From NCBI RefSeq assembly GCF_024808665.1, contig NZ_JANUBZ010000004.1, positions 186,001 through 250,000 on the forward strand: a DNA stretch of 64,000 nucleotides, given 5' to 3'. Each line of letters begins with the position of its first letter. Within the stretch, counting starts at the first letter, position 1. The DNA comes from Mucilaginibacter empetricola. Its GTDB lineage: Bacteria > Bacteroidota > Bacteroidia > Sphingobacteriales > Sphingobacteriaceae. Of this stretch, positions 13,304 to 44,501 are shown piece by piece. Made by a program: the position numbers and the translations under genes. A model generated the notes under the pieces. That model was not told where the DNA came from. It did not search any database and worked only from the letters and a program-made list of their open reading frames with translations.

Positions 13304-13392
13304 AAGTCATTTACGTGCCAATTGTTAAAGTCTTAATTATCTGATGTTTAAGTATAAAATGAATATTTAATAAAAGCGATATATCGCTTTTA
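13304..13392 (-). promoter_or_regulatory. Palindrome plus sigma-54-like promoter of the 12074-13230 operon
   Basis: A perfect 22-bp palindrome at 13371-13392 has the core GCGATATATCGC (13376-13387). On the minus strand TGGCAC (13320-13315), five bases, then TGACTT (13309-13304) resembles a -24/-12 promoter, although the -12 box lacks the canonical GC. The palindrome centre is 61.5 bp from the T of TGGCAC, that is about -88 from a predicted TSS at 13294. The same geometry recurs upstream of other operons here. Confidence 0.65.
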
Positions 13393-13582
13393 ATATGGGC
13401 CCCGGCGAAATAAGGAGCTTTCGGCAGCGGATACGGAATACTTTTAACGGCAACGTGTGATAACCTCCCGCGGAAAAAATTACAATTATGCACAGTGCCA
13501 TCAGACCATGTGTACAATAGAATATCAATGTTTCCATATCATCAGCTGTTTAATGCTGTACATCAGCAATTAGATAGCATTG

Positions 13583-13693
13583 ATGCATCAAGCATGCCAA
13601 GCGATAATTGCTTGACAGCGTGTTAATTATAAATTGGATGAAAAAAACATGGAGCCGGATGTCAATTTTCCATGACGGAATAACGATATATCG
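13583..13693. promoter_or_regulatory. Orphan TGGCAT promoter-like box and palindromes
   Basis: On the minus strand TGGCAT (13599-13594), GCTTG, ATGCAT (13588-13583) has a canonical -12 GC. AAGCGATAATTGCTT (13599-13613) and CGATATATCG (13684-13693) are palindromes related to the regulon motif. The spacing of the exact palindrome to the box is larger than elsewhere (about 90 bp centre to box) and no convincing gene begins downstream before 13230. Possibly a second start for that operon or a small RNA. Confidence 0.4.
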
Positions 13694-13703
13694 CTTGGCC
13701 GGT

Positions 13704-15080
13704 TTATTTGAGGATGATCTTTTTTTCAATGCCTAACTTTTTCATTCTGGATGTTAAAGTTGAGCCATTAATATTTAAAATTTCAGCTGCCCCGCCTTCA
13801 CCGAAAACCTTCCAGTTACAGGCCTGCAACACTTTTATTATATGATCGCGCTCATTTTCATCTATTGTTTTCAGTGGCACGATATCGGCAATGGAATTTC
13901 TTTTACCGGCATAGGCGGCGGGCAAGATATCACTAATAATTTTTCCGTTTGAAAGCAAGACGGCCCTTTCGACCAGGTTTTCCAGCTCCCGGATATTCCC
14001 TGGCCAATGGTAAGCCAACATTGCCTGTGCAGCAGCGTCAGAAAAGCCATTGATCCCCTTAACCTGTCTTTGCGGATTACGGAATAAGAAATAGTGGGCG
14101 ATGGGTAAAATATCTGTTTTCCGATCCCTTAGCGGTGGCAGTAACATGGGAAAAACACTGAGGCGATAATAGAGGTCTATACGAAACCTTCCGAGCGACA
14201 TTTCCTCATCAAGGTTCCTATTAGTAGCTGCAATAATCCTGACATTGATTTTTTTCTTTTTACCACCGATCGGCTCTATTTCTTGTTCCTGCAGTACCCG
14301 CAGGAACTTCACCTGTAGGTCTAGCGGTAGTTCGCCGACCTCGTCCAGGAACACGGTTCCGCCATCGGCCTGCTCAAATTTGCCGATGTGTTTTTCCGAT
14401 GCGCCGGTGAAAGCACCCTTTTCGTGCCCAAACAGTTCGGACTCGATCAAGCCTGCCGGTAATGCGCCGCAGTTTACCACGGTTAGCGGCTGCTGGTCCC
14501 TGGGGGAAAGCTTATGGATAGCCTTGGCGATCAGTTCTTTACCGGTCCCGCTTTCACCAAGGATCAAAACAGTGGTTTCCGAAGGCGCTACCACTTTCAC
14601 ATGGCGGATCACTTCTAAAAAATTGCTGCTCTCACCAATCAAAAAGTCAAGCGCGTTATCGCTTGGTTGATTTTTATCGGAACTCTCTACCTTATCAATC
14701 AGTTCCTGGTTTTGCTGCTGTGAAGAGCAAGCAACATCGATCATGACCAAAACTTCTTTTTCCCGGAATGGTTTAACTAAAAACCCATAAGGCCGGGTGG
14801 CGCCGGCTGCTTTCAGGATCTGCTGATCCGAATTTGCAGAGAGGTATACGAAGCCTATATTTTTATCTCTTAATATTTTAGCAAGGTCAATGCCTGTGAG
14901 CGGACCGTTCAAATGGATATCAAGCAACACCAGCAAGGGTGTCTCTTTTTCTATGATAGCTAAAGCTTCCGGCACTGACCGAGCAATTGTGCATACCTTA
15001 TAGCCCGCTTTTTTTAAGATCAGCTGCAGGAAATTGGCTTCCACAAACTGGTCTTCAACGATGAGTATTTTAGCTTTCAT
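13704..15080 (-). CDS. NtrC-family response regulator (REC-AAA+-Fis HTH)
   Basis: 458 aa. Receiver domain 4-118 with acidic pair E9/D10, phosphoacceptor D54 (LVLLDIHLNG) and K-P-F near 103. The sigma-54 AAA+ domain follows from about 145 to 375 with Walker A GESGTGKE, the sigma-54 contact loop GAFTGA, Walker B GGTVFLDEVGELP and arginine fingers in the R-F-R-x-D-L-Y-Y-R-L segment. The C-terminal Fis-type HTH (415-455) ends GGAAEILNINGSTLTSRMKK. It is a complete phosphorylation-controlled enhancer-binding protein. The kinase at 9584, in the same unit, is a plausible partner. It is divergent from the GAF-containing activator at 15313 and is the best candidate to bind the GCGATATATCGC palindromes. 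Confidence 0.92.
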   Translation of the reverse strand: MKAKILIVEDQFVEANFLQLILKKAGYKVCTIARSVPEALAIIEKETPLLVLLDIHLNGPLTGIDLAKILRDKNIGFVYLSANSDQQILKAAGATRPYGFLVKPFREKEVLVMIDVACSSQQQNQELIDKVESSDKNQPSDNALDFLIGESSNFLEVIRHVKVVAPSETTVLILGESGTGKELIAKAIHKLSPRDQQPLTVVNCGALPAGLIESELFGHEKGAFTGASEKHIGKFEQADGGTVFLDEVGELPLDLQVKFLRVLQEQEIEPIGGKKKKINVRIIAATNRNLDEEMSLGRFRIDLYYRLSVFPMLLPPLRDRKTDILPIAHYFLFRNPQRQVKGINGFSDAAAQAMLAYHWPGNIRELENLVERAVLLSNGKIISDILPAAYAGKRNSIADIVPLKTIDENERDHIIKVLQACNWKVFGEGGAAEILNINGSTLTSRMKKLGIEKKIILK

Positions 15081-15264: not shown

Positions 15265-15294
15265 CGGCACAGCTATTGGTAAGCGATATTTCGT
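15265..15294 (+). promoter_or_regulatory. Possible self-regulated promoter of the GAF-type activator
   Basis: CGGCAC (15265-15270), five bases, TTGG (15276-15279) is a degenerate -24/-12 element, and GCGATATTTCGT (15283-15294) is a variant of the palindrome overlapping the predicted TSS. A site in that position would repress rather than activate. Tentative. Confidence 0.35.
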
Positions 15295-15312
15295 TATCAA
15301 AAAACATTCCAG

Positions 15313-17982
15313 ATGATCGCAAAAATAGTAGATACCCGGCAAAACGAACCTGTTAAGAATGATCAGGCGTTTTTAGTAAAATTTGCTAAAAAGCTAACTG
15401 CCGTTAAAACCCGGCGGCAATTATTTAATATAATCAACCGGGATATCGGCGCTTACCTGAATTTTGAATTCAGTACGTTATTTATGTTGGGCACGGACCG
15501 TGATCTGGCTACAAATTATTTTGTTAATGAAACTTCGGCAGATCCTGAAAACCCTTTTTGCGACCGGAGATCTTTTGGCAACCCGGCTGACCGGAAGGCG
15601 CTTGTTATAGTAACGGATACGGCAGGCACTACAGATTTTGACGCCACAGCCGAAAAGCAATTAATTGGAAGTTATTTGAAAACCAAAAATGAGTATATCA
15701 CCCAAAGGGGCGTGATAGTCAACCTGAGCGACCAGGGGACGGTAGCTGCACATTGGGTGATAATTACGGAGTACGAACAGGAATTTACGTTGAATCGTAT
15801 AGAATTGCTTCAAATCATTGCGCATATGCTTTGCCTGGTCCTGGCTAACCTGAGAACAGATGAAATGGTTACAGAGAAATATTCAGAAAGCGAAACCTTA
15901 CAATCGCTCAATATCGACTTCGCATCGATCAGGGCAAAAAATGACCTTTTAAAAATTATTCATCATAAGTTAAAAAGACTTTTTGACTTTGGCTACCATT
16001 GGTTAACCGTGATCAATGAGAATCAGTCGGTGATGTCTACATTCCTACAGGATTCGCTGCCCGGTGTGGAAGAAGAACCTTGCTACCAGGAGGCCGTAAA
16101 AGTCAGGTACGCTGTAGCTGACGGCATATTCGATAGAGTCCTGTATATTAATGATCCCCAAGTATTTGATATGGAGCAATTAAATCTGCAAGGCGGTATG
16201 CCAGGCTATATACAGGCCCTCTATGATAGTGGTGTTAAAAAAACGGTCATGACCGGCCTGCGAATAGGTTCCCGGATCATTGGCGCCTGGACAATCTGCC
16301 TGACAGAGAACCGGGAAATTAACAGTAAACAACTCAGCCTCATTAAAGGGCTTTGTGACCAGCTTTCCATAGCTGTTTCCAATATTGTGGCCAACGAAGA
16401 GATTGCTGAAAGAGAAAAAGAGAAATCACGTCTGCTAGCGTTCAGCAATGCCATTGCTTCGGTGAGGGATAAAAACGTGCTGGCCAAAATTCTCAAAGAA
16501 CAGTTAAGGGATCTTTTTAATATTAAAGATTACGTCATTCATTCGTTAAGCGATAATAAGCAGGCACATACGCCGATACTATTTGATCCTGATGCCGATT
16601 TTGCCCAATGTGCCGAATTTAGAAAATTGATCGGTAAGGAGAACAAGGTAAATGATGGGATATTTGACAGGATACTGGCATCAGAGGACCCGGTCTTTTT
16701 TGACCTGGACCAATGTTCCCGCTGGCCGGGACATCCCGATTACCTGGAAAGTGCAAAAAAGGAAATCGCCTTAACCCAAATGATTGGCGTATCAATCCGT
16801 CTTGGCCAGGAGAATATAGCAGTGATGAATTTCATCCACGAAGACTATGGTAGCATCATCGAGCAATATCACTTGTTCAAATGTATACTATCGCAAATTG
16901 CGCTGACCATTTCCAATATTATGGCCAATGAAAAGGTCATCTGCCAGCTTAATGAAATCAATAGCTATAAGCTATTGCTTGAGGAGGAAAAAATATATCT
17001 CAAGGAAGAAATAGAAACAACGCTGAACTATTCGGAGATCGTCGGCGAAAGTGCGGCAATGCAAAAAACTTTCCGGTTGGTATCGCAGGTTGCTTCCTCA
17101 GATAGTACAGTTTTGATCCTTGGCGAGACGGGAACCGGCAAAGAACTGATTGCCCGTGCAATACACAATAGTTCACCCCGGAAAAACAAACTGATGGTTA
17201 AGGTTAACTGTGCCGCGCTGCCTGCAAATTTGATCGAATCTGAATTGTTCGGTCATGAGCGCGGCAGTTTTACCGGGGCAACCGAACGCAGGCTTGGTAA
17301 ATTTGAACTGGCTAATAATGGCACCCTTTTCCTGGATGAGGTCGGTGATATGCCGCTGGAACTCCAGGTTAAGTTACTCCGCGCTTTACAGGAAAAAGAA
17401 ATTGAAAGGGTCGGCGGAAGAAATACGATCAAAGTGGATGTAAGAATTATCGCTGCCACCAACCGCGACCTGGAAAAGGAAATGGCCGAAGGCAGGTTTA
17501 GAAGCGATTTGTATTACCGGTTAAATATTTTTCCGATCACTTTACCGCCGCTCAGGGAACGCAGGGAAGATATTCCTAATCTTGCGCTTTATTTTATTCA
17601 AAGATTTGCAAAAAGATCTGGTAAGGAAATCAATACCTTAAATAATAGGGCGTTACAGGAGCTGGTCAACTATTCATGGCCGGGAAACATACGCGAATTA
17701 GAACACCTGATCGAAAGAAGCATTTTACTTACGGCAGGTGATACCATCAAACAAATCCATTTGCCGAATCAAAGTCAGCAAACGTTGAAGGTTATGGCAG
17801 AAGAGGAATTTGTGATCAAAACCATTGATGAAAATGAACGCGATTTTATTTTAAAAACGCTCAAATACTGCAGTGGCAGGATAGGTGGGCAAAATGGCGC
17901 GGCCCAAATTTTGGGCGTACCGTCCAGCACACTGAATTCAAAGATCAAAAGATTGGGGATACGGAAAGATCATCATCTTTAA
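15313..17982 (+). CDS. Sigma-54-dependent activator with GAF-like sensor domains
   Basis: 889 aa, no receiver. Residues 1 to about 550 contain three tandem GAF-like modules (segments around 25-180, 200-355, 375-540), each ending in a helix such as [19 protein letters not shown] linker helix leads to the AAA+ domain at about 575-805: Walker A GETGTGKE at 604-611, contact loop GSFTGA at about 650 (A to S variant of GAFTGA), Walker [14 protein letters not shown]. The C-terminal Fis-type HTH ends [20 protein letters not shown], closely like that of the neighbour at 13704, so the two may read the same sites. Resembles FhlA/NorR-type regulators, which sense small molecules. The ligand is unknown. 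Confidence 0.9.
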
Positions 17983-18001: not shown

Positions 18002-18859
18002 CTACCTGCCTGGTTTGCCGACAGGCAGACTTGCGACAATAGAAATACCCGTCTTTTCCCGGAAAGCCTTTGGAGAAACTTTGGTAAACTTTTTAAATAC
18101 GCGGCTAAAGTAGAATTCATCCTGAAAATTTAATTGATAAGCGATTTCTTTAATACTGTGCCGGGTAAGGTGCAACTGCTTTTTTGCCTCGATGATCAGT
18201 CTTTCGGTAATCAGCTGCGAAGGGGTTTTGTTAAAATAGTTTGAGGTCTTTTTAGTTAAGCTATTGGAGGAGATATGTAACAAATCGGCATAATCGCCGG
18301 GTTTATGTAGAGTCAGAAAATGCTGGTCGATCAACCGTCTTAACTGTTCCATTAAATGGTCGATCTCTTGCAATTCCTGTCTTTCAAGCATGCTGATCTT
18401 AATGGCACTCGCTTTGGCAAGCCAAAGCTGCAAATAGGATCGGATTACCGTTTCATTAGTTTGAGGCGAGGTAAATTCCTGCTCTAGGTCAGTAAGAAGA
18501 TTTCGAAACAAAATAAAGTCTTTACCCGATAAGTTTACAGCAGGCTCAATATAACAGTTGTTAAATAATAGCCCATTGCAGGATACCTCGGCCCTGTGGT
18601 ATTCGATACAATAAAAGTCGCCATGGAACTGGATCATGGTGATTTCAAGTGGACCTTGCTCCTCAATATAAATCTGTTGAAGCGGCGTTGCGAATAACAA
18701 TACAGGGCCGCTAAACGGAAAAGTGCTAAAATCGGCGTGATAAATGCCTTTGCCCTCAGCAATGAAAATGACTGTATAAAAGCTAAATTGTATCGGCTTA
18801 GCTAAATAGCCTGCATTAGCCTTAATCATATTAAATAACAATTCGTTGTTTTCCATCAT
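18002..18859 (-). CDS. AraC-family transcriptional regulator
   Basis: 285 aa. N-terminal cupin-like sensor domain (about 10-150) and a C-terminal AraC DNA-binding domain (about 185-280): YADLLHISSNSLTKKTSNYF and IKEIAYQLNFQDEFYFSRVFKK, ending VSPKAFRE. Normal length for the family, no signal peptide. It follows the dehalogenase-like gene by 29 bp in the same direction and converges on the GAF-type activator. Likely controls a local operon or the AraC-type tandem sites near 33.2 and 35.1 kb; target not shown by the sequence. Confidence 0.88.
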   Translation of the reverse strand: MMENNELLFNMIKANAGYLAKPIQFSFYTVIFIAEGKGIYHADFSTFPFSGPVLLFATPLQQIYIEEQGPLEITMIQFHGDFYCIEYHRAEVSCNGLLFNNCYIEPAVNLSGKDFILFRNLLTDLEQEFTSPQTNETVIRSYLQLWLAKASAIKISMLERQELQEIDHLMEQLRRLIDQHFLTLHKPGDYADLLHISSNSLTKKTSNYFNKTPSQLITERLIIEAKKQLHLTRHSIKEIAYQLNFQDEFYFSRVFKKFTKVSPKAFREKTGISIVASLPVGKPGR

Positions 18860-18888: not shown

Positions 18889-19644
18889 TTAAATGTTCAG
18901 GTAAGCCAGCAGATCATTAAGGTTTTTTCCAATACCGTCCGGTATGGCTCCTAATTGCTCCAAGGGCATTTGCATACCATTCACCCAAAAGGTTTGATAA
19001 CCAAATATTTTTGCGCCGGCAAGGTCCCAGCCGGCAAAAGGAACAAACAATATCTCTTCTTTAGCCAGGCTAAAGGCACTCATGCCTAAAGCGTAAGTGG
19101 CAGGATCTGGCTTATACTTTTTTAACTGATCTACACTGATCATATGCTCGAAATAATGATCTATTTGATTATTGGTTGCATTAACCAACAGCATTTCAGG
19201 TGTGTAGTTTGATAAAATTCCTAAACGCAAACCTGCGGACTTTAATCGTGATAGCGCCGTTGGCACTTCCTGCCAAACTTGTAAATGATAATAAGCTTCC
19301 ATTAGTTTTTTTCGCTGTAGTTCTGATATTCCTATCCCAAGCAATGTGCCCGCAAAAATCAACGCGTCTTCGGTTACTTTAAAAAAATCCTGGTAGTTAC
19401 CGGCTAAACTTCTTAACCAAGTATATTCAAACTGCCTTATTCGCCATTCCTTTATCAGTTCATCACTTTTTTCAGGAAATAACTGCGCAGCTATTTTGAA
19501 TACAGGCCGCGCGTCAAATATAGGGAAGCCATCAAATATTATGGCTTTGATAGATGAACTTGGGAAATTATCCTTTATTGCTGTGTGTAAATAAACGGCA
19601 GCAGTTAAAGCGCCGCCTACGGCCAAAAATTCGCGTCTGTCCAT
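18889..19644 (-). CDS. HAD-superfamily haloacid dehalogenase-like protein with Tat signal
   Basis: About 251 aa from MDRREFLAVGGALTAAVYLH, a twin-arginine export signal (RREFL). The start at 19644 is favoured over 19662 by GAGGAA seven bases upstream. HAD motifs: nucleophile region AIIFDGFPIFD, motif II LSNYTP, motif III lysine in KKYKPDPATY, and a late acidic motif replaced by FVPFAGWDLAGAK. The arrangement is that of L-2-haloacid dehalogenase type II (hydrolysis of 2-haloacids to hydroxyacids), unusually routed to the periplasm. The FVPFAGWD stretch, where V-x-(S/A)-x-x-x-D is usual, keeps the aspartate. First gene of an operon with the AraC regulator. Confidence 0.85.
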   Translation of the reverse strand: MDRREFLAVGGALTAAVYLHTAIKDNFPSSSIKAIIFDGFPIFDARPVFKIAAQLFPEKSDELIKEWRIRQFEYTWLRSLAGNYQDFFKVTEDALIFAGTLLGIGISELQRKKLMEAYYHLQVWQEVPTALSRLKSAGLRLGILSNYTPEMLLVNATNNQIDHYFEHMISVDQLKKYKPDPATYALGMSAFSLAKEEILFVPFAGWDLAGAKIFGYQTFWVNGMQMPLEQLGAIPDGIGKNLNDLLAYLNI

Positions 19645-19685
19645 GTATTCCTCGTTGGTCATGTCGTTAGTATATAATACATTTC

Positions 19686-19769
19686 ATGTTAATTTTATGC
19701 CAGTAGATAAATATGTGATTATCAGTAAGTTATTTCTATTTTTCGATTACGGTTGCGGCGGTATTTCGC
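19686..19769 (-). promoter_or_regulatory. Palindrome plus sigma-54-like promoter of the dehalogenase operon
   Basis: On the minus strand TGGCAT (19702-19697), AAAAT, TAACAT (19691-19686). The variant palindrome GCGGTATTTCGC lies at 19758-19769, its centre 61.5 bp from the T of TGGCAT, exactly as at 13304-13392. The predicted TSS is near 19676. The -12 box is non-canonical. Confidence 0.6.
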
Positions 19770-19943: not shown

Positions 19944-20026
19944 GCGATATATCGCCTGTATTAAATCTTTGAAATATTATAAGTGTCTGATTACAAGAGC
20001 TTTGATATCTGGCATTAAGTTGTCTA
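19944..20026 (+). promoter_or_regulatory. Palindrome plus sigma-54-like promoter of the 20158-27745 operon
   Basis: GCGATATATCGC at 19944-19955 is followed, 60.5 bp from its centre, by TGGCAT (20010-20015), TAAGT, TGTCTA (20021-20026) on the plus strand. The predicted TSS near 20036 leaves a ~120-nt leader before 20158. Another TGGCAT at 20126-20131 is closer to the gene but lacks the spacing. Confidence 0.6.
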
Positions 20027-20157: not shown

Positions 20158-20742
20158 ATGAAAAATTCATTTATATCATTTATTGCAGGCCTGGACCAGT
20201 TTGGCAAAAAAGCTGCCCGCTTTGGGATTGTCGTGGTTTTCCTTTGGATAGGGGGACTGAAATTTTTCACTTTTGAAGCAGACAGCCTGGTGCCATTTGT
20301 GGCGAACAGCCCTTTTATGTCATTTTTTTATAGCCATCCATCTCAATATAAAAAACACATGAACCCGGAAGGGGAATTGATCCCCGCCAATCATCAGTGG
20401 CAGGAAGCAAATAATACCTATGGTTTCTCAACCGGGTTGGGTATCATATTGGTAACGCTGGCAATTTTAATTGCTTCATACAAAGTAGTTCCTGTTCCAA
20501 GCATGATAGCCAGCATGCTGATCTTTATCATGACGCTGGGTACACTATCTTTTTTAATAACTACCCCCGAAAGCTGGGTGCCACATTTAAGTGATAAAGA
20601 CTGGGGCTTTCCTTTTTTATCTGGAAGAGGCCGCCTAGTCATTAAAGACATCGTTATTCTTGGCGGAGCAATTATTACGATGAGCGAAACCGCCGCCCTT
20701 TACCTTAAACGCAAACAAATATGTCAACAAAATAAATCCTAA
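20158..20742 (+). CDS. DUF417 (YkgB/RclC-like) inner-membrane protein
   Basis: 194 aa with about four transmembrane helices (FGIVVVFLWIGGLKFFTF; GFSTGLGIILVTLAILIA; MIASMLIFIMTLGTLSFL; IKDIVILGGAIITM) and the DUF417 hallmarks KFTxFEAxxIxPxVxxSPFM-like (KFFTFEADSLVPFVANSPFM) and the FLSGRGRLVIKD segment. In E. coli the family member RclC is part of the reactive-chlorine response. Here it heads a ten-gene operon with peroxidase, dehalogenase-like and thioredoxin-like genes, which supports an oxidant or electrophile stress role. The exact activity of the family is unknown. Confidence 0.88.
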   Translation: MKNSFISFIAGLDQFGKKAARFGIVVVFLWIGGLKFFTFEADSLVPFVANSPFMSFFYSHPSQYKKHMNPEGELIPANHQWQEANNTYGFSTGLGIILVTLAILIASYKVVPVPSMIASMLIFIMTLGTLSFLITTPESWVPHLSDKDWGFPFLSGRGRLVIKDIVILGGAIITMSETAALYLKRKQICQQNKS

Positions 20743-20753
20743 AATTTAATGAT

Positions 20754-21293
20754 ATGAAAACCATAACCGTCCCAACCCGCGACCAGGTAAGCACCGATTC
20801 GCAATTACTTTTTGACGTAATGCAAAAGCGCCTCGGGAAAGTACCTAATCTATATGCTACCATGGGCCGATCGCCATTCGCACTGAAAGCGTTTATGAAC
20901 CTGGAAGAAACACTTAACGCAGGCGCGTTTGACCCAAAAGAAAGAGAAGCTATCGCTTTGGTTGTTTCTGAAGTGAATGAATGCGCCTATTGCCTGGCAG
21001 GACATACCATGCTGGCCATTAAAAGAGGACTTACCAAAGAAGAAACCCTTGAAATAAGAAAAGGAGTGGTGCAAGATCCTAAACTAAACGCGATAGTGCA
21101 ATTAGCTAAAGCGATAACGGAAACTAAAGGAAACCCTTCGGAGCAGTACCTCACCCAATTTTATGAGGTAGGTTTTAATGAAGGTGCGGTTATGGACCTG
21201 ATCGGCTTGGTGATCGTGCGGCTTTTCACCAACTATGTTTTCGCTTTAACCAACATACCTGTTGATTTCCCGCTGGCTGATTCTATAAAATAA
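20754..21293 (+). CDS. AhpD-like carboxymuconolactone decarboxylase family peroxidase
   Basis: 179 aa. The core (AIALVVSEVNECAYCLAGHT) has the AhpD redox motif E-x-x-x-C-x-x-C with C77 and C80 and the following histidine, seen in alkylhydroperoxidase D-type disulfide reductases. The remainder is helical, and the C-terminus (VIVRLFTNYVFALTNIPVDFP) matches relatives annotated as carboxymuconolactone decarboxylase family. Predicted cytosolic thiol peroxidase or disulfide relay. Starts 11 bp after the DUF417 gene, so the two are translationally close. Confidence 0.9.
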   Translation: MKTITVPTRDQVSTDSQLLFDVMQKRLGKVPNLYATMGRSPFALKAFMNLEETLNAGAFDPKEREAIALVVSEVNECAYCLAGHTMLAIKRGLTKEETLEIRKGVVQDPKLNAIVQLAKAITETKGNPSEQYLTQFYEVGFNEGAVMDLIGLVIVRLFTNYVFALTNIPVDFPLADSIK

Positions 21294-21321
21294 TTAACTA
21301 ATGCACTCCTAACCGGCAAAA

Positions 21322-21789
21322 ATGGAAAATAATCGGCGGCTGTTTCTTCAGCAAATTGCATGTTGTTTTCTTTTTGCTGTTCATCCATTAAAAACAAACA
21401 GTAATATGAATACCCAGGGAATAATTACCCGGACAAGCCCATACGATGTTAAGGAAACTATTGACAGGTTAGTCGTTTTGTTAGAGAAACATGGCGCCAC
21501 TATTTACAGCCGCATCAATCAGCAAAGCGAAGCCAGGCACGCCGGCAAGGATATTTTTCCGGTTGAGTTTCTTTTGTTTGGCAATCCTGCAAATGGAAGC
21601 ACCATTATGGAAACTAATCCACTTGCCGCGCTTGACCTTCCATTGAAAATACTCGCATGGGAAGGAACGGACCAGGTGGTGAGGGTATCTTTTAATGATC
21701 CGGTATATATTCAAAAAAGATACTCCCTGCCTATTCAGCTGGTTGTACCGTTAAACCTTACGCCGCTGATTGACAAGGCTCTCGCTTAA
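21322..21789 (+). CDS. DUF302 domain protein
   Basis: 155 aa. After an N-terminal hydrophobic stretch (LQQIACCFLFAVHPL, possibly a signal or lipoprotein-like segment), the DUF302 pattern is clear: TSPYDVKETIDRLVVLLEKHG, then FPVEFLLFGNPANGSTIME, PLAALDLPLKILAWEG. This domain forms small dimeric folds of unknown function that often accompany redox or envelope-stress genes. Alternative start at the internal Met (MNTQGIITR) would remove the hydrophobic leader. Fourth position from the operon promoter counts as accessory to oxidant defence only by context. Confidence 0.85.
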   Translation: MENNRRLFLQQIACCFLFAVHPLKTNSNMNTQGIITRTSPYDVKETIDRLVVLLEKHGATIYSRINQQSEARHAGKDIFPVEFLLFGNPANGSTIMETNPLAALDLPLKILAWEGTDQVVRVSFNDPVYIQKRYSLPIQLVVPLNLTPLIDKALA

Positions 21790-21831
21790 AATTAAAACGC
21801 AAAATTATTTAAACTTAAAACCAGAGAAAAA

Positions 21832-22245
21832 ATGAATAATCCTGAAAGGCTATCAGATGAAGATAAACTTCAAATTGCCACCACTTTCCTAAGTTCACTC
21901 AGGAGCCGGAATTGGCAAATGATGCATACCATATTAACCGAAGATGCTTCATGGACATTGCCCGGTACAAGTCTACTATCAGGCGAGGCAAAAGGCGCTG
22001 ATGCCGTTGTTGACCGTGCCCGCAAGCTTCGCAACTTTGGAGTTATGGTGGAGTTATTGCACGTATTGTACAGTATGGACGGCATAGCAGTATCACTGCA
22101 TAACACTGCCGGGCGGGGCGAATTAAAACTGGATGAGTATGTGGTTATTGTGATGGAGCTACGGGATAAAAGGATAGCCAAATTGACTACTCATTTACAT
22201 GATGTGCCTGCCATTGACGGGTTTTTTGTTGAAGGAATAATTTAA
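21832..22245 (+). CDS. NTF2-like (SnoaL-type) protein
   Basis: 137 aa, soluble. Features of the NTF2-like cone fold: helix QIATTFLSSLRSRNWQMMHTI, then EDASWTLPGTSLLSGEAKGADAVVDRA, and strand ELKLDEYVVIVMELRDKRI with the late H-x-H-D near LTTHLHDVP. Relatives include SnoaL-like polyketide cyclases and dehydratase-like enzymes or binding proteins for small hydrophobic ligands. Catalytic assignment is not possible from sequence. Sits in the detoxification operon between DUF302 and the metallo-hydrolase. Confidence 0.8.
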   Translation: MNNPERLSDEDKLQIATTFLSSLRSRNWQMMHTILTEDASWTLPGTSLLSGEAKGADAVVDRARKLRNFGVMVELLHVLYSMDGIAVSLHNTAGRGELKLDEYVVIVMELRDKRIAKLTTHLHDVPAIDGFFVEGII

Positions 22246-22265
22246 CGTCTATTAAATCAATATCA

Positions 22266-23138
22266 ATGATGAAATCATTAAAAATTACCATGCTGGTGGT
22301 GCTGATAGCTTTCACACAATTGGCAATAGCGCAAACCGCGAAATCCTTTCAATGGATAGGCGGCCCAACCTATGTATTGCATTTGGGCAGCTTTAAAATA
22401 TTGACAGATCCAATGCTCAGCCCCAAAAGCGATACGGCCTTCTTTATTGCAAAGCACCCGACAACAGGCGCGCTTAACGCGCCTATACAACGGTATATAG
22501 CTCCTGCAAAGTTTGATACTTCGTACATTGACCTGCTGCTGATCAGCCATCCGCATGCCGACCATTTTGACAAGGAAGCAAAAGCCGCGCTAAATAAGCA
22601 ATTGTTTGTAATAGCCCCGGGAGTAAATAAAGACCTCATCAAAAGCTGGGGTTTTACCCGTACTACGGGATTAAACTGGGGAGATTCATCTGTGTTAGTT
22701 AAGGGAGATGAAACTTTGAGAATTATAGCTGTCGAGGCGATGCATGCTAAAGATGAACCATTAAAAACTCAATTGGGTAAAGGCAATGGGTATATTATTG
22801 AGTATACCAGGGGGCGCAATGTTTACCGCATTTACTGGACAGGGGATACGGTATGGTTTGATGAAATACAGGATAATACTAAATACGGGCGAATTAACCT
22901 GCTGATACCTGATATGGGTTCGGTGGGCTCTGACGGAAAGATAGGCAGGCGCGGATTAAACGCGCAGGATTGCCTTAAAATTGTTAAAGCATTAAACCCT
23001 GACCGTATTACGCCTGTACACCACACCACGTTTTCGATGTATGTAGAGCCGATCTCTGTTTTACAACAGACTTTAGATACCACCAAATACAAAAGTAGAT
23101 TGAGCATTATTAAAACGGGCGGGATCATCAAGTTGTAA
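22266..23138 (+). CDS. Exported metallo-beta-lactamase-fold hydrolase (UlaG-like)
   Basis: 290 aa with a signal peptide (MLVVLIAFTQLAIAQ). The MBL-fold zinc motif is SHPHADHFDKEA (H-x-H-x-D-H), preceded by GGPTYVLHLGSFKILTDPML, which is characteristic of the UlaG/RomA-type branch. Later metal ligands are TGDTVWFDE and the terminal PVHHTTFSMY. Predicted periplasmic metal-dependent hydrolase, substrate unknown (this branch includes lactonases and phosphodiesterases). All ligands needed for a two-zinc site appear present. Confidence 0.88.
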   Translation: MMKSLKITMLVVLIAFTQLAIAQTAKSFQWIGGPTYVLHLGSFKILTDPMLSPKSDTAFFIAKHPTTGALNAPIQRYIAPAKFDTSYIDLLLISHPHADHFDKEAKAALNKQLFVIAPGVNKDLIKSWGFTRTTGLNWGDSSVLVKGDETLRIIAVEAMHAKDEPLKTQLGKGNGYIIEYTRGRNVYRIYWTGDTVWFDEIQDNTKYGRINLLIPDMGSVGSDGKIGRRGLNAQDCLKIVKALNPDRITPVHHTTFSMYVEPISVLQQTLDTTKYKSRLSIIKTGGIIKL

Positions 23139-23150
23139 GGATTCACTCCT

Positions 23151-23561
23151 ATGGAAATCAAACAGATCAAGCCACCTTTTGACAAAGCAGCAGCCCTGAT
23201 AAAAGTGCAAAGAGCTGAAGATGCCTGGAATACCCAAGACCCGGAGCGGATAGCGATGGCCTATACGCTGGATACGGAATGGCGCAATCGTTCCAGCTTT
23301 ATCAATGGCCGCAACGAGGTGATAAGTTTTTTAACGGCCAAATGGCAGCAGGAATTAAATTATAAACTCAAAAAGGAATTATGGGCATTTCATGAGAATA
23401 GGATCGCTGTGCGGTTTGAATATGAATACCAAAACATAAACGGCAAATGGTTCAGGGCTTACGGAAATGAGAATTGGGAATTTGATGACCAAGGACTGAT
23501 GTCCAAACGATTCGCCAGCATTAATGATGTAGCGATTTCGGAAACCGGTCGCCGACTGTGA
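23151..23561 (+). CDS. DUF1348 family (NTF2-like) protein
   Basis: 136 aa. Contains the DUF1348 signature AEDAWNTQDPERIAMAYT, then DTEWRNRSSFINGRNEVISF, FLTAKWQQELNYKLKKELWA, NRIAVRFEYEYQN and GNENWEFDDQGLM. The family has an NTF2-like fold and no established biochemical role. Second NTF2-like gene in this operon, 12 bp after the metallo-hydrolase. Complete length. Confidence 0.9.
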   Translation: MEIKQIKPPFDKAAALIKVQRAEDAWNTQDPERIAMAYTLDTEWRNRSSFINGRNEVISFLTAKWQQELNYKLKKELWAFHENRIAVRFEYEYQNINGKWFRAYGNENWEFDDQGLMSKRFASINDVAISETGRRL

Positions 23562-23595
23562 AATAATCAATCCAGATAAAACAAAATTAAAAACA

Positions 23596-29187: not shown

Positions 29188-29193
29188 TTTGAT

Positions 29194-33295: not shown

Positions 33296-33456
33296 AGTCG
33301 CGGGGATTCGAACGCACATAGCGGTGATCATCAGTAACTTAAAGAGGTGGCCAAGTGATTGGAGCAAAAGAAAACCTCTTAATATTCGATTTAAATTACT
33401 GTAAATCAATATATTAAGAGGTTTCAGTGGAGCCGGAGGGATTGAGGTCGAACCCC
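33296..33456. repeat. Island right-end module C: T-arm-like site, hairpin, ssrA-like site
   Basis: AGTCGCGGGGATTCGAAC at 33296-33313, the CCTCTTAATATTCGATTTA hairpin with its complement ending AAGAGG near 33421, and TGGAGCCGGAGGGATTGAG with TCGAACCCC at 33428-33456. The ssrA-like copy shares the GATTGAG/TCGAACCCC insertion with site A1 at 3139, so A1 and C2 are closer to each other than to the functional tmRNA end. Boundary of units 2 and 3. Confidence 0.7.
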
Positions 33457-38702: not shown

Positions 38703-41168
38703 ATGCGCATAAAAATGATACTATTTGTCATGTTTTTTTTAAACGGCATCCCGTATATCCATGCGCAAAAAACTCCTGGTTATCCTGCCAGCGAAATGAA
38801 GCCGTCTTTTCAGCGGCTATTGTTGGATCTGAGCACCACATATTTTACCGTTGTTAAAGAAAACCAGGTAGACCTCGACAGCAGTTTAATCCATGTTAGC
38901 CATAGCCTATCGCTTAGCCGGTTGCCGGTAGTTGCCGATGGAATAGATGATAAAGAAGTGCTAAATAATGCACAATGGGTAGACCAAAGAAACCCCTGGA
39001 TAGGGCAACAGCAGTTACATGCTGCCACTGGTCAAAAGCATGCTGAGCTTTTGACCCTGCTTGGTGCCTATTTCGCATTTGAACCCTTAAATGACAGCTC
39101 CGCGATCAAAAAAAGCGCCTACTTTTTGAACCAGGGAATAAAAGAAAGCGGCAAGCTGAATAACGCGCCGCTAAAGTTGGCCGGTGAGCGGTTATTAGGC
39201 AAACTCAGTTTAAAAAATTACGATTTTGTGAAAGCCGATAAGTTGTTTGACGAGGTAAAGAACGGCTACCTAAATGCAGGAGACCAGTTAGAAGCTGCTA
39301 CAACCTGTTCATGGTGGGGATTGTATGCGCCGGTAACACCTGCCAGTTCGCCACCAAGGATCAAGCACATCGAGATGGCCTTAGATCTATATAAATCAAT
39401 TGATGACAAAGAGAGCCAGGTAAACGCGTTGATCAACGACAGCTACATACACGTACTGTTATTTGATTTCGCGGACGCGGAAAAGTTAGAAAAACAAGCA
39501 TTGGACCTTGCACAACAGACCGGGTTTCCATACACCCATTATATCACCGGGGCATTGTTGGCGATCACTACGTTCCAGGGGAAATTTGGAGAGCCGCTGA
39601 ACTATGGTATAGAAAGCGCGAAACAGGCAGAAATGCTAAGAGACAGTATAGGGTTGCCCCATTTTTATGGCTCTGTAGGGCAGATTTATAGTAAGGAAAA
39701 TGATGATACAAAAGTTCCAGTCATTTGGTATACAAAAGCAATTAATTGTTTCTTAAGTCAACATGAAAGCTGTTATTTTGTTTTAAATGATATAGTTAAT
39801 AACCTGGTGGATTGCGGACGTAAAGGTGACGCATTACAAATGATCAACAGGGTTGTTAGCCGGGTACCTCCAAAAACCGATAAAGATAAGATAGAATACG
39901 ACCTGGCCATGGAAAGCTATTATATTTCTAATAAAAGTTGGGCCGTTGCGCTAAGATCTATTAATAACGCTGACAGCATTGCGAAATATTTGGAAAAACA
40001 CGGAGGCTACTTTGGAAAAAAATTTCTGATCGGAGATTTTGCAAGCTTTTATTACAAAATAGGGAACTATAAAAAGGCAAAGATATATTATAAGCAATAT
40101 CTTAATACTCCCAGTGTGCACGGAAAAATCCTATACAATGAAATGATAGCCTGGCATGTGCTTATTGAAATAGATTCGACTGAAGGTAATAAGGATGCTG
40201 AATTAAAGGATTATGCTAAATATATGGATCTTGTAAATCAGAATTACATAATATCTAAAACCAGGCAAGCTGAAGAACTACAGGTCAAGTACGCTACCGC
40301 GGACAGGATAAACCAGATAAAAGTACTTGATCAAAAAGCCAAGCTTGAACAGGAGAACCTTAAACAGGCGAACCGGGTTAAGGATATTACCATTGGCGGG
40401 ATCATACTATTGGTTATTATAGCAGTGTTACTTTACCGGCAAACCCGGATGAAACAAAAAACCAATAACATCATCAACCGGAAAAATGAGCTGATGCAGC
40501 AATTGCTGGAAGATAAGGAATTGCTTTTGGAAGAAAAAGAGTGGCTTGTTAAAGAGATACACCACCGTGTAAAAAATAACCTGCATACCATTATCTGCCT
40601 TTTGGAATCTCAGGCGCTTTACTTAGATAACGATGCTCTGAAAGCTATTGAAACCAGTCGTCACCGGATATACGCCATGTCACTCATCCATCAAAAATTG
40701 TATCAGTCGGATGATATAAAAGTGATTGATATTAAGCTTTACCTAATAGAGTTTGTGCAATATCTAACGGAAGGGTTTGGTTCCCCCGAAAACATTCGGG
40801 TTACCCTTCATGCTGAACATATCAATTTAGGGGCAGCCCAGGCAATACCCATAGGCCTTATTATCAACGAAGCGGTAAATAATTCTTTTAAATATGCATT
40901 CCCAAATCAAAGGGAAGGGAAAATAGAGATAACATTGCAAAAAAACGGGGATGAAATTTACTTATCGGTTATAGACGATGGTGTGGGGTTTAAACATGAT
41001 ACCGACCTGCAAGCGGATTCGCTTGGGCTGGAACTCATTAAGGGGTTAACACTTGACCTTAAAGGAAATTTAGACTTTAATACAAATAACGGTACCAAAA
41101 TCCTTATCAGGTTTGCAATTGATCTTGTAAGTATGCCTTTAGAAGCAGAATATGATGGTATAGCTTGA
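38703..41168 (+). CDS. Sensor histidine kinase, HisKA_2 type (paralogue of 9584)
   Basis: 821 aa. Same architecture as the kinase at 9584: signal peptide (MILFVMFFLNGIPYIHAQ), conserved opening (MKPSFQRLLLDLSTTYFTVV), long TPR-like periplasmic region, transmembrane helix at about 566-586 (ITIGGIILLVIIAVLLY), coiled coil, HisKA_2 with EIHHRVKNNLHTI (His620/621), and HATPase_c (NEAVNNSFKYAF, DDGVGF). A short extra repeat LLEDKELLLEEKEWLVKE lies in the coiled coil. The two kinases probably arose by duplication between islands and may share an output regulator. Confidence 0.9.
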   Translation: MRIKMILFVMFFLNGIPYIHAQKTPGYPASEMKPSFQRLLLDLSTTYFTVVKENQVDLDSSLIHVSHSLSLSRLPVVADGIDDKEVLNNAQWVDQRNPWIGQQQLHAATGQKHAELLTLLGAYFAFEPLNDSSAIKKSAYFLNQGIKESGKLNNAPLKLAGERLLGKLSLKNYDFVKADKLFDEVKNGYLNAGDQLEAATTCSWWGLYAPVTPASSPPRIKHIEMALDLYKSIDDKESQVNALINDSYIHVLLFDFADAEKLEKQALDLAQQTGFPYTHYITGALLAITTFQGKFGEPLNYGIESAKQAEMLRDSIGLPHFYGSVGQIYSKENDDTKVPVIWYTKAINCFLSQHESCYFVLNDIVNNLVDCGRKGDALQMINRVVSRVPPKTDKDKIEYDLAMESYYISNKSWAVALRSINNADSIAKYLEKHGGYFGKKFLIGDFASFYYKIGNYKKAKIYYKQYLNTPSVHGKILYNEMIAWHVLIEIDSTEGNKDAELKDYAKYMDLVNQNYIISKTRQAEELQVKYATADRINQIKVLDQKAKLEQENLKQANRVKDITIGGIILLVIIAVLLYRQTRMKQKTNNIINRKNELMQQLLEDKELLLEEKEWLVKEIHHRVKNNLHTIICLLESQALYLDNDALKAIETSRHRIYAMSLIHQKLYQSDDIKVIDIKLYLIEFVQYLTEGFGSPENIRVTLHAEHINLGAAQAIPIGLIINEAVNNSFKYAFPNQREGKIEITLQKNGDEIYLSVIDDGVGFKHDTDLQADSLGLELIKGLTLDLKGNLDFNTNNGTKILIRFAIDLVSMPLEAEYDGIA

Positions 41169-41173
41169 TAAAA

Positions 41174-41806
41174 TCAACGGGTAAATATCAACCGGTTTGC
41201 CAGATCAATCTCGGGCTGTGTGATGGTATGCGGCCGGCCCTTATACGCTTCTACTGTAACAATAGCATCCATCACTTTTAAAACATCGGCGCTTTCCAGC
41301 ACACGCTGTAAAGGTACATGCGGGTCGGGGTCGCCGGTAGTAATAAGAACGGGCGTGGCGTCAAAAAATCCTTTATAATTACCGGAGTTTATCTGCTGCC
41401 CGATCAATCCGCCGGTAAATGCAACTGCACCGCCATAATGCCTTGCATTGCGTGCTATAAACTCCAGTGTAAGGCAGGCACCTTGCGAAAATCCGGCAAA
41501 GTATATTTTTTCTGCCGGTATACTTGCTGCAATAATGTCTTTAACAATGTCACTAATTATTTCCAAAGCAGAATCAAGGGCGGCCAGGTTGTCTGCAATC
41601 GGCGCCATAAAACTATAGGGGTACCAGCTTTGATGGATTGCCTGCGGGGCAATGATCGACATGTCTTTCATGTTAAATTTACCAGTCAGCGATAGAATGT
41701 TGCCTGAGGTACCACCTCTGCCATGAAGCATAACCAGTGCCCCTTTGGCATTAGCCAAAGGCGTACCGGCTGTTATTATATTTTTTTGATGGGTGTACAT
41801 AGTCAA
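41174..41806 (-). CDS. MhqD-like carboxylesterase (alpha/beta hydrolase)
   Basis: 210 aa. Phospholipase/carboxylesterase fold: MLHGRGGTSGNILSL, nucleophile elbow AGFSQGACLTLEF, acid in LITTGDPDPHVPL and histidine in YKGRPHTI. In Bacillus the mhq operon pairs a hydrolase (MhqD) with a ring-cleaving dioxygenase (MhqO) against quinone stress; the same pair appears here with a 4-bp overlap of start and stop. Predicted cytosolic hydrolase for ring-cleavage products or quinone adducts. Third gene of a minus-strand operon that begins at 44318. Confidence 0.85.
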   Translation of the reverse strand: MTMYTHQKNIITAGTPLANAKGALVMLHGRGGTSGNILSLTGKFNMKDMSIIAPQAIHQSWYPYSFMAPIADNLAALDSALEIISDIVKDIIAASIPAEKIYFAGFSQGACLTLEFIARNARHYGGAVAFTGGLIGQQINSGNYKGFFDATPVLITTGDPDPHVPLQRVLESADVLKVMDAIVTVEAYKGRPHTITQPEIDLANRLIFTR

Positions 41807-42738
41807 TACAATTGAGGCAGCGCGCGTTCAATTTCACTGCGACGGCTTTCATATTGCGGAGGCAGCATAAGGTGGGTGCCCAGTTCATCTGCCGGTTCGT
41901 CAACGGCAAAGCCGGGATTATCGGTAGCTATCTCAAACAGTACACCACCCGGTTCGCGGAAATAAAGTGAATAAAAATAGTTTCGGTCTATCTTGTCTGT
42001 GATGTGGATGCCCATGCCTGCAATTATATCGCGATACTCCATCAGCGTTTTTTCATTGCTTACGCGAAAAGCCACATGATGCACTGAACCGCCAGCTATT
42101 TGACCCGCGATTTCGCCTGCGACTTCAACCAGGTCTACGATATTCGCATTTGCAACAGAATCCGTAATAAACCGGTAACGGTTAACACTTTGCGCTAACA
42201 ATTTGAAACCCAATACCTCAGTTAGAATTCTTGCGGTCGGTTCCATTTTGTTGGTAGTGATGGTGATTTGATGAAAACCTTTGATAGTATTTTCAACCTT
42301 TATCTCTGTTGTTTCCCAGGGCAAACGGGTATCTTCATTTTTTGCTACGGTGAGTTCAAACTTTAAACCATCGGGGTCAAGAAAGGTAAGATATTGCTCG
42401 CCAAACTTTTCAGCAATTTTGTTATGGATGATATTATGATCTTCCAGTCGCTTCAACCAGAACTCAAAACTGCCTTGCGGAACCGAATAGCCAATTTCGG
42501 TAACCTGCCTTGCGCCACGGCGGCCGGTAGTTATTCCTTCCCAAGGAAAGAAGGTCAATATGGTGCCTGGCGAACCAGTTTGATCGCCATAATACAAGTG
42601 ATAAGTTTTCGGGTCATCAAAGTTTACGGTCTTTTTTACCAGGTGCAAACCCAGTGTATGGGTATAAAAGTTTACATTCCGTTTTGCACTCCCGGAAATA
42701 GCGGTGACATGATGAATGCCTTTTATTTTATTTTCCAT
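41803..42738 (-). CDS. Ring-cleaving dioxygenase, MhqO-like (VOC fold)
   Basis: 311 aa with two vicinal-oxygen-chelate halves. First half KGIHHVTAISGSAKRNVNFY, FDDPKTYHLYYGDQTGSPGT; second half KGFHQITITTNKMEPTARIL, GSVHHVAFRVSN and YFREPGGVLFEIATD with the metal-binding His/Glu pattern. These match ring-cleaving dioxygenases annotated as MhqO, which open catechol- or hydroquinone-like rings with Fe(II) or Mn(II). Complete length. Overlaps the esterase gene by four bases, so translation is probably coupled. Confidence 0.92.
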   Translation of the reverse strand: MENKIKGIHHVTAISGSAKRNVNFYTHTLGLHLVKKTVNFDDPKTYHLYYGDQTGSPGTILTFFPWEGITTGRRGARQVTEIGYSVPQGSFEFWLKRLEDHNIIHNKIAEKFGEQYLTFLDPDGLKFELTVAKNEDTRLPWETTEIKVENTIKGFHQITITTNKMEPTARILTEVLGFKLLAQSVNRYRFITDSVANANIVDLVEVAGEIAGQIAGGSVHHVAFRVSNEKTLMEYRDIIAGMGIHITDKIDRNYFYSLYFREPGGVLFEIATDNPGFAVDEPADELGTHLMLPPQYESRRSEIERALPQLY

Positions 42739-42779
42739 TGTTATTATTAATATGATCCAATTTACCCGTGTTTATTGCA

Positions 42780-44318
42780 TCAAACATCTGTAGCCAACAG
42801 ATCCGTCGCCAGGTGTTCTCCTATCATTAACGTGGGTGCATGGGTATTCCCGGATGTGATCTTTGGCATAATGGAGGCGTCAGCCACGCGTAAACCTTCG
42901 ATCCCATGCACTTTTAGCTTTGCGTCGACTACATCTGTTTCCTCCCGTCCCATACGGCAGGTGCCTATGGGGTGCCAGTAACTTGCTGTTGCAAGTTTGA
43001 TATAATCAATGATCTCTTTGTCGCTTGATAGTGGAGAAAGTCCAACGATCTTCTGTGTAATTTCTTTAAGGGCCGGCTGTTCTGAAAAATTCAGTGCGAT
43101 GCGGACCGCCTCAACCATTGCCTTTAAATCAGCCGTTTGTGTAAACATATTAGGTTGAATTTCGAGTGGCCCAAACGGCGAATTGGATAGCATTTTGACA
43201 TAACCCCGGCTTTCAGAAAGCATAAGGCATGAAATGATTGAAAAACATTTTTGCGGAATAGGATACTTCTCAGCTACCGCGGGAGTAGTTAGAGGAAATG
43301 GTGGTGCAATGAACATCAGGTCCGAAGAGTAGGTAGCATAACTGCTTTTGGCAAATACTGTTGATATCTGAAGATCTAAACCATCGGTAGCTGAGCCTTT
43401 TTTCAATTCAGCTAAAATTGCGAGATTAGGATGGTCTTGCATATTTTTGCCAACGCCGCGCAGCCCATGTGCTACTTTAATGCCAACAGCAGATAACTCA
43501 TCCGGATCACCAATGCCTGAAAGCATTAAAATTCTGGGACTGTCAAATGAGCCAGCTGAAAGAATTACTTCACTCGCGGCATAGGCACTATCCTGTTGTC
43601 CGTCTTTAATAAATTTCACTCCCATGCATTTGCTGCCTTCCAAAATAAGTTTGGTTACAGCCGAGCCAGTAATAACCGTCAGGTTTGGATTGTGCAGTAC
43701 CGGTAGTAAATAACCGGTATATGCGCTGCTTCTTTTACCGTTTTTTACGTTCCTTACCAATGCTCCGGCGCCATATGGGTTTGGGCCGGACATATCATCA
43801 ACAATAGGTAAACCAAAAGAGGCGGCTGCTCTAATCAACGCGGATGCAATATAATTGGGGTTTTTCACCTTTTCGACATGGATCGGCCCCCCTTGCCCAT
43901 GATAGGCGGTTTCACCACCTTCCCAGTCTTCAACACGTTTAAATAAAGGCAGTACAGACTGATAATCCCAGCTCTCATTCCCCTCGGCAGCCCAGCCGTC
44001 GTAGTCAGCATGGCTTCCCCGGGCCCATATCAGGCCATTAATGCTGCTTGAGCCGCCTAATAATTTGCCCCTCGGCACTGGTATGACGCGATTATTTAAA
44101 AAAGGCTGCGGCGCATAACTATATCGATAGTCGATATTTGTCCCAAAAGACATATACCATTTGTCCGGATCAGTGGTTACATCCGCCATCGGATCGCCAT
44201 CTCCGGCCTCCAATAGTAAAACGGTCGCATTGGTATGATCTAATAGTCGCCTGGCGATAACACAACCTGAGGTACCTGCGCCAATGATAATGTAGTCAAA
44301 CTGTTTATAATTTTTCAT
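42780..44318 (-). CDS. GMC family oxidoreductase (choline dehydrogenase-like)
   Basis: About 512 aa from MKNYKQFDYIIIGAGTSG; the upstream frame to 44360 lacks homology. FAD-binding G-A-G-T-S-G at 11-16, LLLEAGDGD, GMC signatures GKLLGGSSSINGLIWARG and SAGSFDSPRILMLSG, and the C-terminal active-site region ATASYWHPIGTCRMG with the conserved His. A cytosolic flavin-dependent alcohol or aromatic alcohol oxidase. It is the first gene of the operon, 41 bp before the dioxygenase, and the likely initial oxidation step of a detoxification pathway. Confidence 0.92.
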   Translation of the reverse strand: MKNYKQFDYIIIGAGTSGCVIARRLLDHTNATVLLLEAGDGDPMADVTTDPDKWYMSFGTNIDYRYSYAPQPFLNNRVIPVPRGKLLGGSSSINGLIWARGSHADYDGWAAEGNESWDYQSVLPLFKRVEDWEGGETAYHGQGGPIHVEKVKNPNYIASALIRAAASFGLPIVDDMSGPNPYGAGALVRNVKNGKRSSAYTGYLLPVLHNPNLTVITGSAVTKLILEGSKCMGVKFIKDGQQDSAYAASEVILSAGSFDSPRILMLSGIGDPDELSAVGIKVAHGLRGVGKNMQDHPNLAILAELKKGSATDGLDLQISTVFAKSSYATYSSDLMFIAPPFPLTTPAVAEKYPIPQKCFSIISCLMLSESRGYVKMLSNSPFGPLEIQPNMFTQTADLKAMVEAVRIALNFSEQPALKEITQKIVGLSPLSSDKEIIDYIKLATASYWHPIGTCRMGREETDVVDAKLKVHGIEGLRVADASIMPKITSGNTHAPTLMIGEHLATDLLATDV

Positions 44319-44386
44319 AAAATAAATGTTAATATAGATCTGTGAACTTCGTAGTTTCAATAAAAATTAATCGGATGACATAGGCA

Positions 44387-44501
44387 TCTTAAATATTATG
44401 CCAACCGTTTAAATTTCTATATATCAATATGTTATGAAGGTTATTATTGGTTTTGCAGCATCAGCATTTCGCCGATTAGCGTGTAGAAAGCGATATATAA
44501 T
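44387..44501 (-). promoter_or_regulatory. Weaker palindrome/TGGCAT promoter of the GMC-dioxygenase operon
   Basis: TGGCAT (44403-44398), AATAT, TTAAGA (44392-44387) on the minus strand. At the expected distance, centre 63.5 bp from the T, lies a half-conserved site with right half TTTCGC (44467-44472). A better half palindrome GCGATATAT (44490-44498) lies farther upstream. The promoter fits the unit-2 series less well, so membership in the regulon is tentative. Confidence 0.4.

Follow-up and report, generated by a model that had tools for sequence, protein, structure and literature searches.

A twelve-base palindrome as the probable enhancer of a sigma-54 regulon with two FhlA-type activators in Mucilaginibacter empetricola

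The closest described systems to the locus reported here are those of FhlA and NorR, enterobacterial activators with the domain order GAF-AAA+-HTH (HTH, helix-turn-helix) and with -24/-12 promoters preceded by a palindromic enhancer, and of HrpR and HrpS of Pseudomonas syringae, two related enhancer-binding proteins (EBPs) that lack regulatory N-terminal domains, are encoded together and serve one set of promoters. The locus lies in a 64,000-nucleotide stretch of the Mucilaginibacter empetricola genome (contig NZ_JANUBZ010000004.1, positions 186,001 to 250,000 of the forward strand), called the window below, whose own numbering is used throughout; G, C and L numbers are our labels for genomes, contigs and loci. 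In it, a twelve-base palindrome, GCGATATATCGC, recurs at a fixed distance upstream of sigma-54-type boxes, around two divergent EBP genes. The layout resembles that of FhlA and NorR, as does the domain order of the EBP encoded at 15313 (GAF-EBP). The target genes are different, an EBP with a receiver domain (REC-EBP, encoded at 13704) stands alongside, and the GAF-EBP falls far below the FhlA cut-off. The pairing recalls HrpR and HrpS, but the window partners instead differ in their sensor domains.

Outside Pseudomonadota, control by sigma-54 has been studied less (PMC12316311). Within Bacteroidota, the promoters of the Flavobacterium psychrophilum SM4 sigma-54 regulon, likewise of the -24/-12 type, have been mapped and the motif of one verified by mutation in a reporter; that regulon differs in covering chaperone, envelope-stress and gliding genes, and the text consulted mentions no enhancer palindrome (PMC9723704). 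A further likeness is to the RclR-rclABC response of Escherichia coli to hypochlorite and hypothiocyanite, in which RclC is required for hypothiocyanite resistance (PMC12096828), as the main window operon starts with an RclC-like gene; RclA, RclB and RclR were, however, not recognised in that operon by Pfam or NCBIfam names, and sigma-54 EBPs stand in place of RclR. Our literature search found nothing relevant on sigma-54 in Mucilaginibacter or on enhancer-binding proteins of Bacteroidetes. What we describe is very likely to be a genuine sigma-54 regulon whose enhancer is defined, the regulon being new and its kind already known.

Exact GCGATATATCGC is present in three copies in the whole 5.83-Mb genome, all of them in the window and within 16.5 kb (13376-13387, 19944-19955 and 29893-29904), and a fourth, variant copy, GCGGTATTTCGC, with two mismatches to it, lies at 19758-19769. 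A preliminary description of this DNA had proposed a fixed distance between the palindrome and TGGCAY at these four sites, and this holds, with gaps to YTGGCAY of 55 bp (13376), 54 bp (19944), 58 bp (29893) and 55 bp (19758). The palindrome centre is thus 60-64 bp upstream of TGGCAY at all four, or about -87 to -91 from the predicted starts, and such an enhancer-like inverted repeat, within the usual upstream range of ~80-150 bp, is kept in relatives. The chance of all three exact sites having TGGCAY at 54-58 bp is ~2e-7. Among 562 twelve-base palindromes in the window (counted with up to one mismatched half-pair), GCGATATATCGC alone has more than one site with TGGCAY at 54-58 bp, namely three, and five others have one each. 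Sites with at most two mismatches number seven in the window against 2.56 expected, a count reached in one of 100 shuffles, and places in the genome with at most one mismatch number 22, against four for the reversed control pattern. The palindrome is therefore not randomly distributed, and the 18 such places outside the window, none of which has TGGCA at 54-58 bp, were rejected as additional regulon members. Two further window copies are also without TGGCA at that distance: ACGATATATCGC (13683-13694, no strand assigned), immediately beyond the REC-EBP stop codon, and GCGATATTTCGT (15283-15294, no strand assigned), 18 bp 5' of the GAF-EBP start codon, a possible autoregulatory site.

The absence of rpoN had been named beforehand as an observation that would speak against sigma-54; the genome carries one copy (E 4.2e-56), including ARRTVAKYRE, the RpoN box motif. 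A search with 15313 identified eight EBPs in the genome, counting 15313. The two in the window are a receiver-AAA+-HTH protein with a GAFTGA loop (REC-EBP, 13704-15080, minus strand) and an 889-residue GAF-AAA+-HTH protein with a GSFTGA loop (GAF-EBP, 15313-17982, plus strand), and both loops are as first described. Each has an FhlA-like HTH, with Pfam HTH_8 matching 13704 alone and the HTH of 15313 assigned by similarity. These HTHs had been called nearly alike; they are related, but the wording was somewhat strong, as the C-terminal ends share 49% identity across 61 residues. The best NCBIfam model of the GAF-EBP is FhlA (426.6 bits over residues 291-887, below the 830-bit equivalog cut-off). 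In relatives, the EBPs beside promoters of this type have forms in common, for example GGAADILGVPPSTLNSKMKRLGI, and two other EBPs of this genome, L116 (ATLYRKLKDYGL) and L120 (RTLYRKIKELNL), have C-terminal ends of another, NtrC-like kind; apart from the window pair and a paralogue on contig C1, ends were read for these two of five, with L117-L119 outside the comparison. A sensor kinase with TPR and HisKA_2 domains (9584-12034, plus strand) is a candidate partner of the REC-EBP, and a second of the same architecture (38703-41168, plus strand) may also pair with it.

Between the palindrome and the -24 box lies a conserved element that the preliminary description did not contain. In an alignment of 12 promoters over 103 columns (the four window promoters and eight of relatives, the latter obtained by pattern search or lying next to its matches), it reads approximately TTAA-N-TTACTGATAATCAATA-N-TTTAA and fits the consensus of integration host factor (IHF), WATCAANNNNTTR. 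Among the 73 ungapped rows of a 78-row alignment, this consensus is exact at the same aligned position in 14 and has one mismatch in 21; the model that selected the 78 rows favours the element, whereas the genus-wide palindrome-TGGCAY pattern made no demand for it. One window copy is exact, two have one mismatch and one is degenerate. Strong IHF-like elements are also found at 33378-33418 (CTGTAAATCAATATATTAA) and 45045-45083 (TTACTGATAATCAATG), where the model match ends short of a TGGCAY box.

This layout is also found in relatives. Across 149 genomes of the genus, the palindrome (one free base allowed) followed by TGGCAY after 42-70 bp gave 23 matches in 20 genomes, and the reversed control gave two. 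Twelve lie inside open frames of at least 240 residues; the eleven outside comprise one with a gap of 69 bp and ten with gaps of 54-58 bp, these being three sites of the window plus single sites in G013, G044, G059, G074, G088, G093 and G159, of which the first three look orthologous. A profile model, R2, whose 22 training promoters all came from other genomes and not from the window, ranked the four window sites first to fourth in the 5.83-Mb genome (E 2.3e-10, 2.5e-10, 5.5e-10 and 5.3e-8). Of the 22, 15 had come through model R1, which included the window, so that the window letters themselves had no part in the test but the choice of training rows was not wholly independent. Over the genus, a limit of E <= 1 does not discriminate (149 of 149 genomes match); over the family, E <= 1e-4 gave a match in 84 of 301 genomes and 8 of 25 genera, many of the matches listed covering just the IHF-like and -24/-12 part. 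Eighteen other promoter-like matches in the M. empetricola genome share the IHF-like and -24 parts, with no GCGATATATCGC palindrome seen by eye at enhancer spacing in any of the 18. Within the 200-odd bases around the match, nine of them carry approximately TGTWNCR-N3/4-YGNACR on either strand (L154-L156, L162, L164, L165, L170, L173 and L176; e.g. C19:34830, C3:393817 and C10:44130), a second, sigma-54-like promoter set. Since other promoter-like sites of the genome have a different upstream motif, the palindrome is probably the regulon-specific part of the promoter, and the IHF-like and -24/-12 elements the common part. Genes of ~800 residues lie near several of the TGTWNCR-motif promoters (L110-L113).

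The gene content of the relatives' regions, unlike promoter presence, is independent evidence. An FhlA-type EBP is present in 13 of the 22 regions fetched for such promoters (the window, L103, L104+L190, L106, L180+L181, L182+L183, L184+L185, L186+L187, L188, L189, L192, L193+L194 and L195); at eight EBPs per genome we estimate the chance of an EBP in a 20-kb stretch at ~3%, a figure that EBP-richer genomes would raise, several of the regions being 40 kb. One such protein, of 1754 residues with a long N-terminal part, is encoded near palindrome promoters in G074 (L103:3732-8996). A homologous island occurs in three species, G033, G038 and G053 (M. gossypii; over 2001 bp, L201, its sequence is that of Mucilaginibacter gossypii Gh-67), with counterparts of the GAF-EBP (47-51% identity), the REC-EBP (63-64%), the TPR kinases and the RclC-like (62-73%), CMD (50-54%) and DUF302 (30-44%) proteins in all three, together with one or both alpha/beta hydrolases. 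The SnoaL-like protein is found in G033 and G038, and DUF1348 (64-70%) in G033 and G053. In G033 and G038 the order on one strand is CMD, RclC-like, DUF302, GAF-EBP, kinases, REC-EBP. The same kinds of gene lie on one strand in G053, where the two EBP genes are neighbours ~70 bp apart and sit behind a weak enhancer-containing promoter (21 bits), which suggests that the pair is self-activating. In 11 control stretches of the M. empetricola genome, six of them (L115-L120) chosen because they bear EBPs, the island enzymes were absent except for one 24%-identical hydrolase.

Several observations weigh against a sigma-54 regulon of this form. The -24 element, TGGCAY, is present at all four main sites and at a fifth promoter described below, but the -12 element, whose consensus is TTGC, reads TGAC, TAAC, TGTC and TTAC. 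The preliminary description had these boxes lacking the usual GC, which is right for the G at -13 (absent in four of four) and wrong for the C at -12 (present in four of four). In relatives, among 55 promoters with a readable box, G is at -13 in 39 and C at -12 in 26 (absent in 29), with the full TTGC in seven and neither in five. By classical standards the box is therefore weak, and by its sequences it is relaxed across the genus. In addition, no FhlA-type EBP was found within the stretch fetched in nine of the 22 regions (L105, L107, L108, L109, L191, L196, L197, L198 and L199), and the presence of the promoter in relatives is not independent, as the regions were chosen by pattern or promoter model. 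The genome search found a single PF00216 (HU/IHF) gene, so the IHF identity is putative. Outside the family, the loci scanned around relatives of 15313 held no full promoter match: R1, applied to 16 of 80 loci, gave four weak matches (E <= 0.5), none covering the whole enhancer, and a simple pattern search across all 80 gave none. On the other side, some relatives combine a perfect TGGCAT-N5-TTGC with the same layout (L106 and L107), and the layout recurs beside FhlA-type EBPs, which supports the regulon reading of the preliminary description. We consider it highly likely from these sequences that GCGATATATCGC is the enhancer, or upstream activating sequence (UAS), of a sigma-54 regulon on which two FhlA-type EBPs act through a shared site.

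In the mechanism that we propose, dimers of the REC-EBP and the GAF-EBP would bind GCGATATATCGC ~90 bp upstream of the start, and a protein of the HU/IHF family would bend the IHF-like site between the UAS and the promoter, bringing the EBP hexamer within reach of a sigma-54 polymerase poised at TGGCAY-N5-T, where ATP hydrolysis would open the promoter. The inputs may be a small molecule, sensed through the GAF domain, and a phosphoryl group passed to the receiver from a TPR-HisKA_2 kinase, and the signal would turn on four or five operons for oxidoreductases, hydrolases, a dehalogenase and RclC/AhpD-like proteins, whose likely targets would be reactive electrophiles or oxidants. A bolder version, which we think improbable, has the two EBPs forming mixed hexamers on one palindrome, so that one set of sigma-54 promoters computes two inputs, with the pair, the kinases and the detoxification targets travelling through Mucilaginibacter as a self-activating island.

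A plausible, if tentative, alternative keeps the sigma-54 regulon and has a single EBP, probably the GAF-EBP, read the palindrome, with the REC-EBP serving other promoters such as those with variant TGAWATATCA sites. It fits G159 (L106) and G154 (L189), in which a homologue of the GAF-EBP is the sole EBP found in the fetched stretch, and the REC-EBP paralogue on C1, which lies behind a promoter with TGAAATATCA in roughly the UAS position (57 bp from the ten-base core). Against it, both EBPs are kept on one strand in G033, G038 and G053, as neighbours in the last, and in G088 both lie within ~16 kb on one contig (the adjoining L190 and L104).

Promoters 1, 2, 4 and 5 of the window face the minus strand and promoter 3 the plus strand; for promoters 2 to 5, starts are predicted near 19676, 20036, 29808 and 44377. 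Promoter 1 comprises the UAS GCGATATATCGC (13376-13387), the IHF-like element AATTAAGACTTTA (13326-13338, one mismatch to WATCAANNNNTTR) and the -24/-12 box TTGGCACGTAAATGAC (13306-13321), with a start predicted near 13294. Its first gene (12922-13305, minus strand, the real start probably being an internal ATG) encodes a small protein that matched nothing in Pfam, NCBIfam or PADLOC and is a recurring first gene of such promoters, with BLAST homologues in L105, L191 and L195 and lookalikes by eye in L184 and L190; an AraC-type gene follows (12412-12909). Promoter 2 has the UAS GCGAAATACCGC as read on the minus strand (19758-19769), the IHF-like element AATCACATATTTA (19708-19720) and the box CTGGCATAAAATTAAC (19688-19703), ahead of a type II haloacid dehalogenase (18889-19662, minus strand; above the NCBIfam cut-off) and a second AraC-type gene (18002-18859). 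Promoter 3 has its UAS at 19944-19955, with GCGCTATTTCGA, another and degenerate copy, lying 29 bp farther upstream; the UAS is followed by the degenerate IHF-like element TTACAAGAGCTTT (19991-20003) and the box CTGGCATTAAGTTGTC (20009-20024). Behind it, the operon 20158-24573 (plus strand; operons were called by strand and spacing) encodes the RclC-like DUF417 protein (20158-20742; NF040476, 241.6 bits, below the 275-bit cut-off), a CMD/AhpD-like protein, DUF302, a SnoaL-like protein, a metallo-beta-lactamase fold, DUF1348 and an alpha/beta hydrolase. Promoter 4 consists of the UAS GCGATATATCGC (29893-29904), the IHF-like element TATCAATACCTTA (29842-29854, an exact match to the consensus) and the box TTGGCATGAAAATTAC (29820-29835), and precedes an operon for a DUF305 protein and a YVTN beta-propeller protein (27787-29799, minus strand). 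Elsewhere in the window, a TGGCAT-N5-TAGC box lies within a match at 54262-54335, upstream of an open reading frame (ORF) at 52589-54172, the palindrome being absent from the matched stretch.

The preliminary description had counted a fifth site, GCGATATATAAT at 44490-44501, as the enhancer of the promoter at 44390, and here it did not hold. Its distance to TGGCAT is 86 bp and not 54-58 bp, for which reason we rejected it as the proximal enhancer of promoter 5 and retained it as a distal copy. The profile model places the UAS on a degenerate GCGAAATGCTGA at normal spacing, with GCGATATATAAT 29 bp further upstream, so that promoter 5 has a tandem degenerate UAS (44461-44501) and a weak box, TTGGCATAATATTTAA (44389-44404); R2 ranked it fifteenth (44391-44475, E 6.3e-4). 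The operon behind it (41174-44360, minus strand) encodes a GMC oxidoreductase, a VOC dioxygenase-like protein and an alpha/beta hydrolase. Among 65 promoters, second UAS copies with at most three mismatches gave 13 matches at offsets of 14-79 bp upstream of the main palindrome, and eight of these, including 44490 and the copy upstream of 19944, lie at 28-30 bp; tandem enhancers ~29 bp apart therefore seem to exist. In some of the eight pairs, promoter 5 included, the better of the two copies is the distal one.

In relatives, the genes placed first behind promoters of this type include alpha/beta hydrolases, PNPOx-like proteins, CMD proteins, NADH:flavin oxidoreductases of the old-yellow-enzyme family, an aldolase, MFS and outer-membrane efflux proteins, isochorismatases and TPP enzymes, though COX1, SLAC1 and a LytTR regulator occur as well (37 genes scanned, not counting EBPs, kinases and some close orthologues; 25 of the 51 matched families). 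From this gene content we propose, with moderate confidence, that the regulon serves broad detoxification of electrophiles or oxidants. That its genes serve instead the breakdown of an aromatic or halogenated compound appears doubtful: the haloacid dehalogenase, the VOC ring-cleavage-like protein, CMD and the alpha/beta hydrolases do resemble parts of aromatic or organohalide degradation, but a complete pathway was not recognised among them, and the RclC-like protein, with the relatives' efflux, MFS, NADH:flavin oxidoreductase and isochorismatase genes, better fits broad detoxification. It is very improbable that the palindrome has nothing to do with the EBPs and is the operator of a conventional dimeric regulator, repressing or activating, at sigma-A or ECF promoters. 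The degenerate -12 boxes, the two AraC-type genes behind the promoters and the palindromes off enhancer spacing (13683, 15283 and the distal copies) favour this reading, but AraC proteins usually bind direct repeats, and the position near -90, the fixed spacing to TGGCAY, the IHF-like site between, the perfect -12 boxes of some relatives and the FhlA-type EBPs found in 13 of the 22 regions speak against it.

Five of the nine regions without an FhlA-type EBP (L107, L108, L109, L196 and L198, from G044, G059, G013, G111 and G130) have apparently the same gene, of 411-427 residues, immediately downstream of a sigma-54 promoter that carries the palindrome and reads TTGC, TTGA or TTGT at -12. Both of the two copies scanned contain a PycTM (Pycsar effector) domain, and the gene may be of a defence type controlled by sigma-54. 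A short ORF of the window itself (7881-8249) matches positions 5-84 of the 463-position PADLOC model Aga_REase-PNTD1-PNTD2 (E 2e-23) and is possibly a remnant.

For Mucilaginibacter, the sigma-54 regulon proposed here would supply a promoter set ready for reporters and a lead to the role of the RclC-like, CMD, DUF302 and DUF1348 proteins. Because the enhancer, its spacing, the IHF-like site, the probable activators and the targets can be read together and are conserved in relatives, each regulatory step is directly testable. The locus may also offer a case of two differently sensing activators on one enhancer, and of all its parts this EBP pair most deserves testing.

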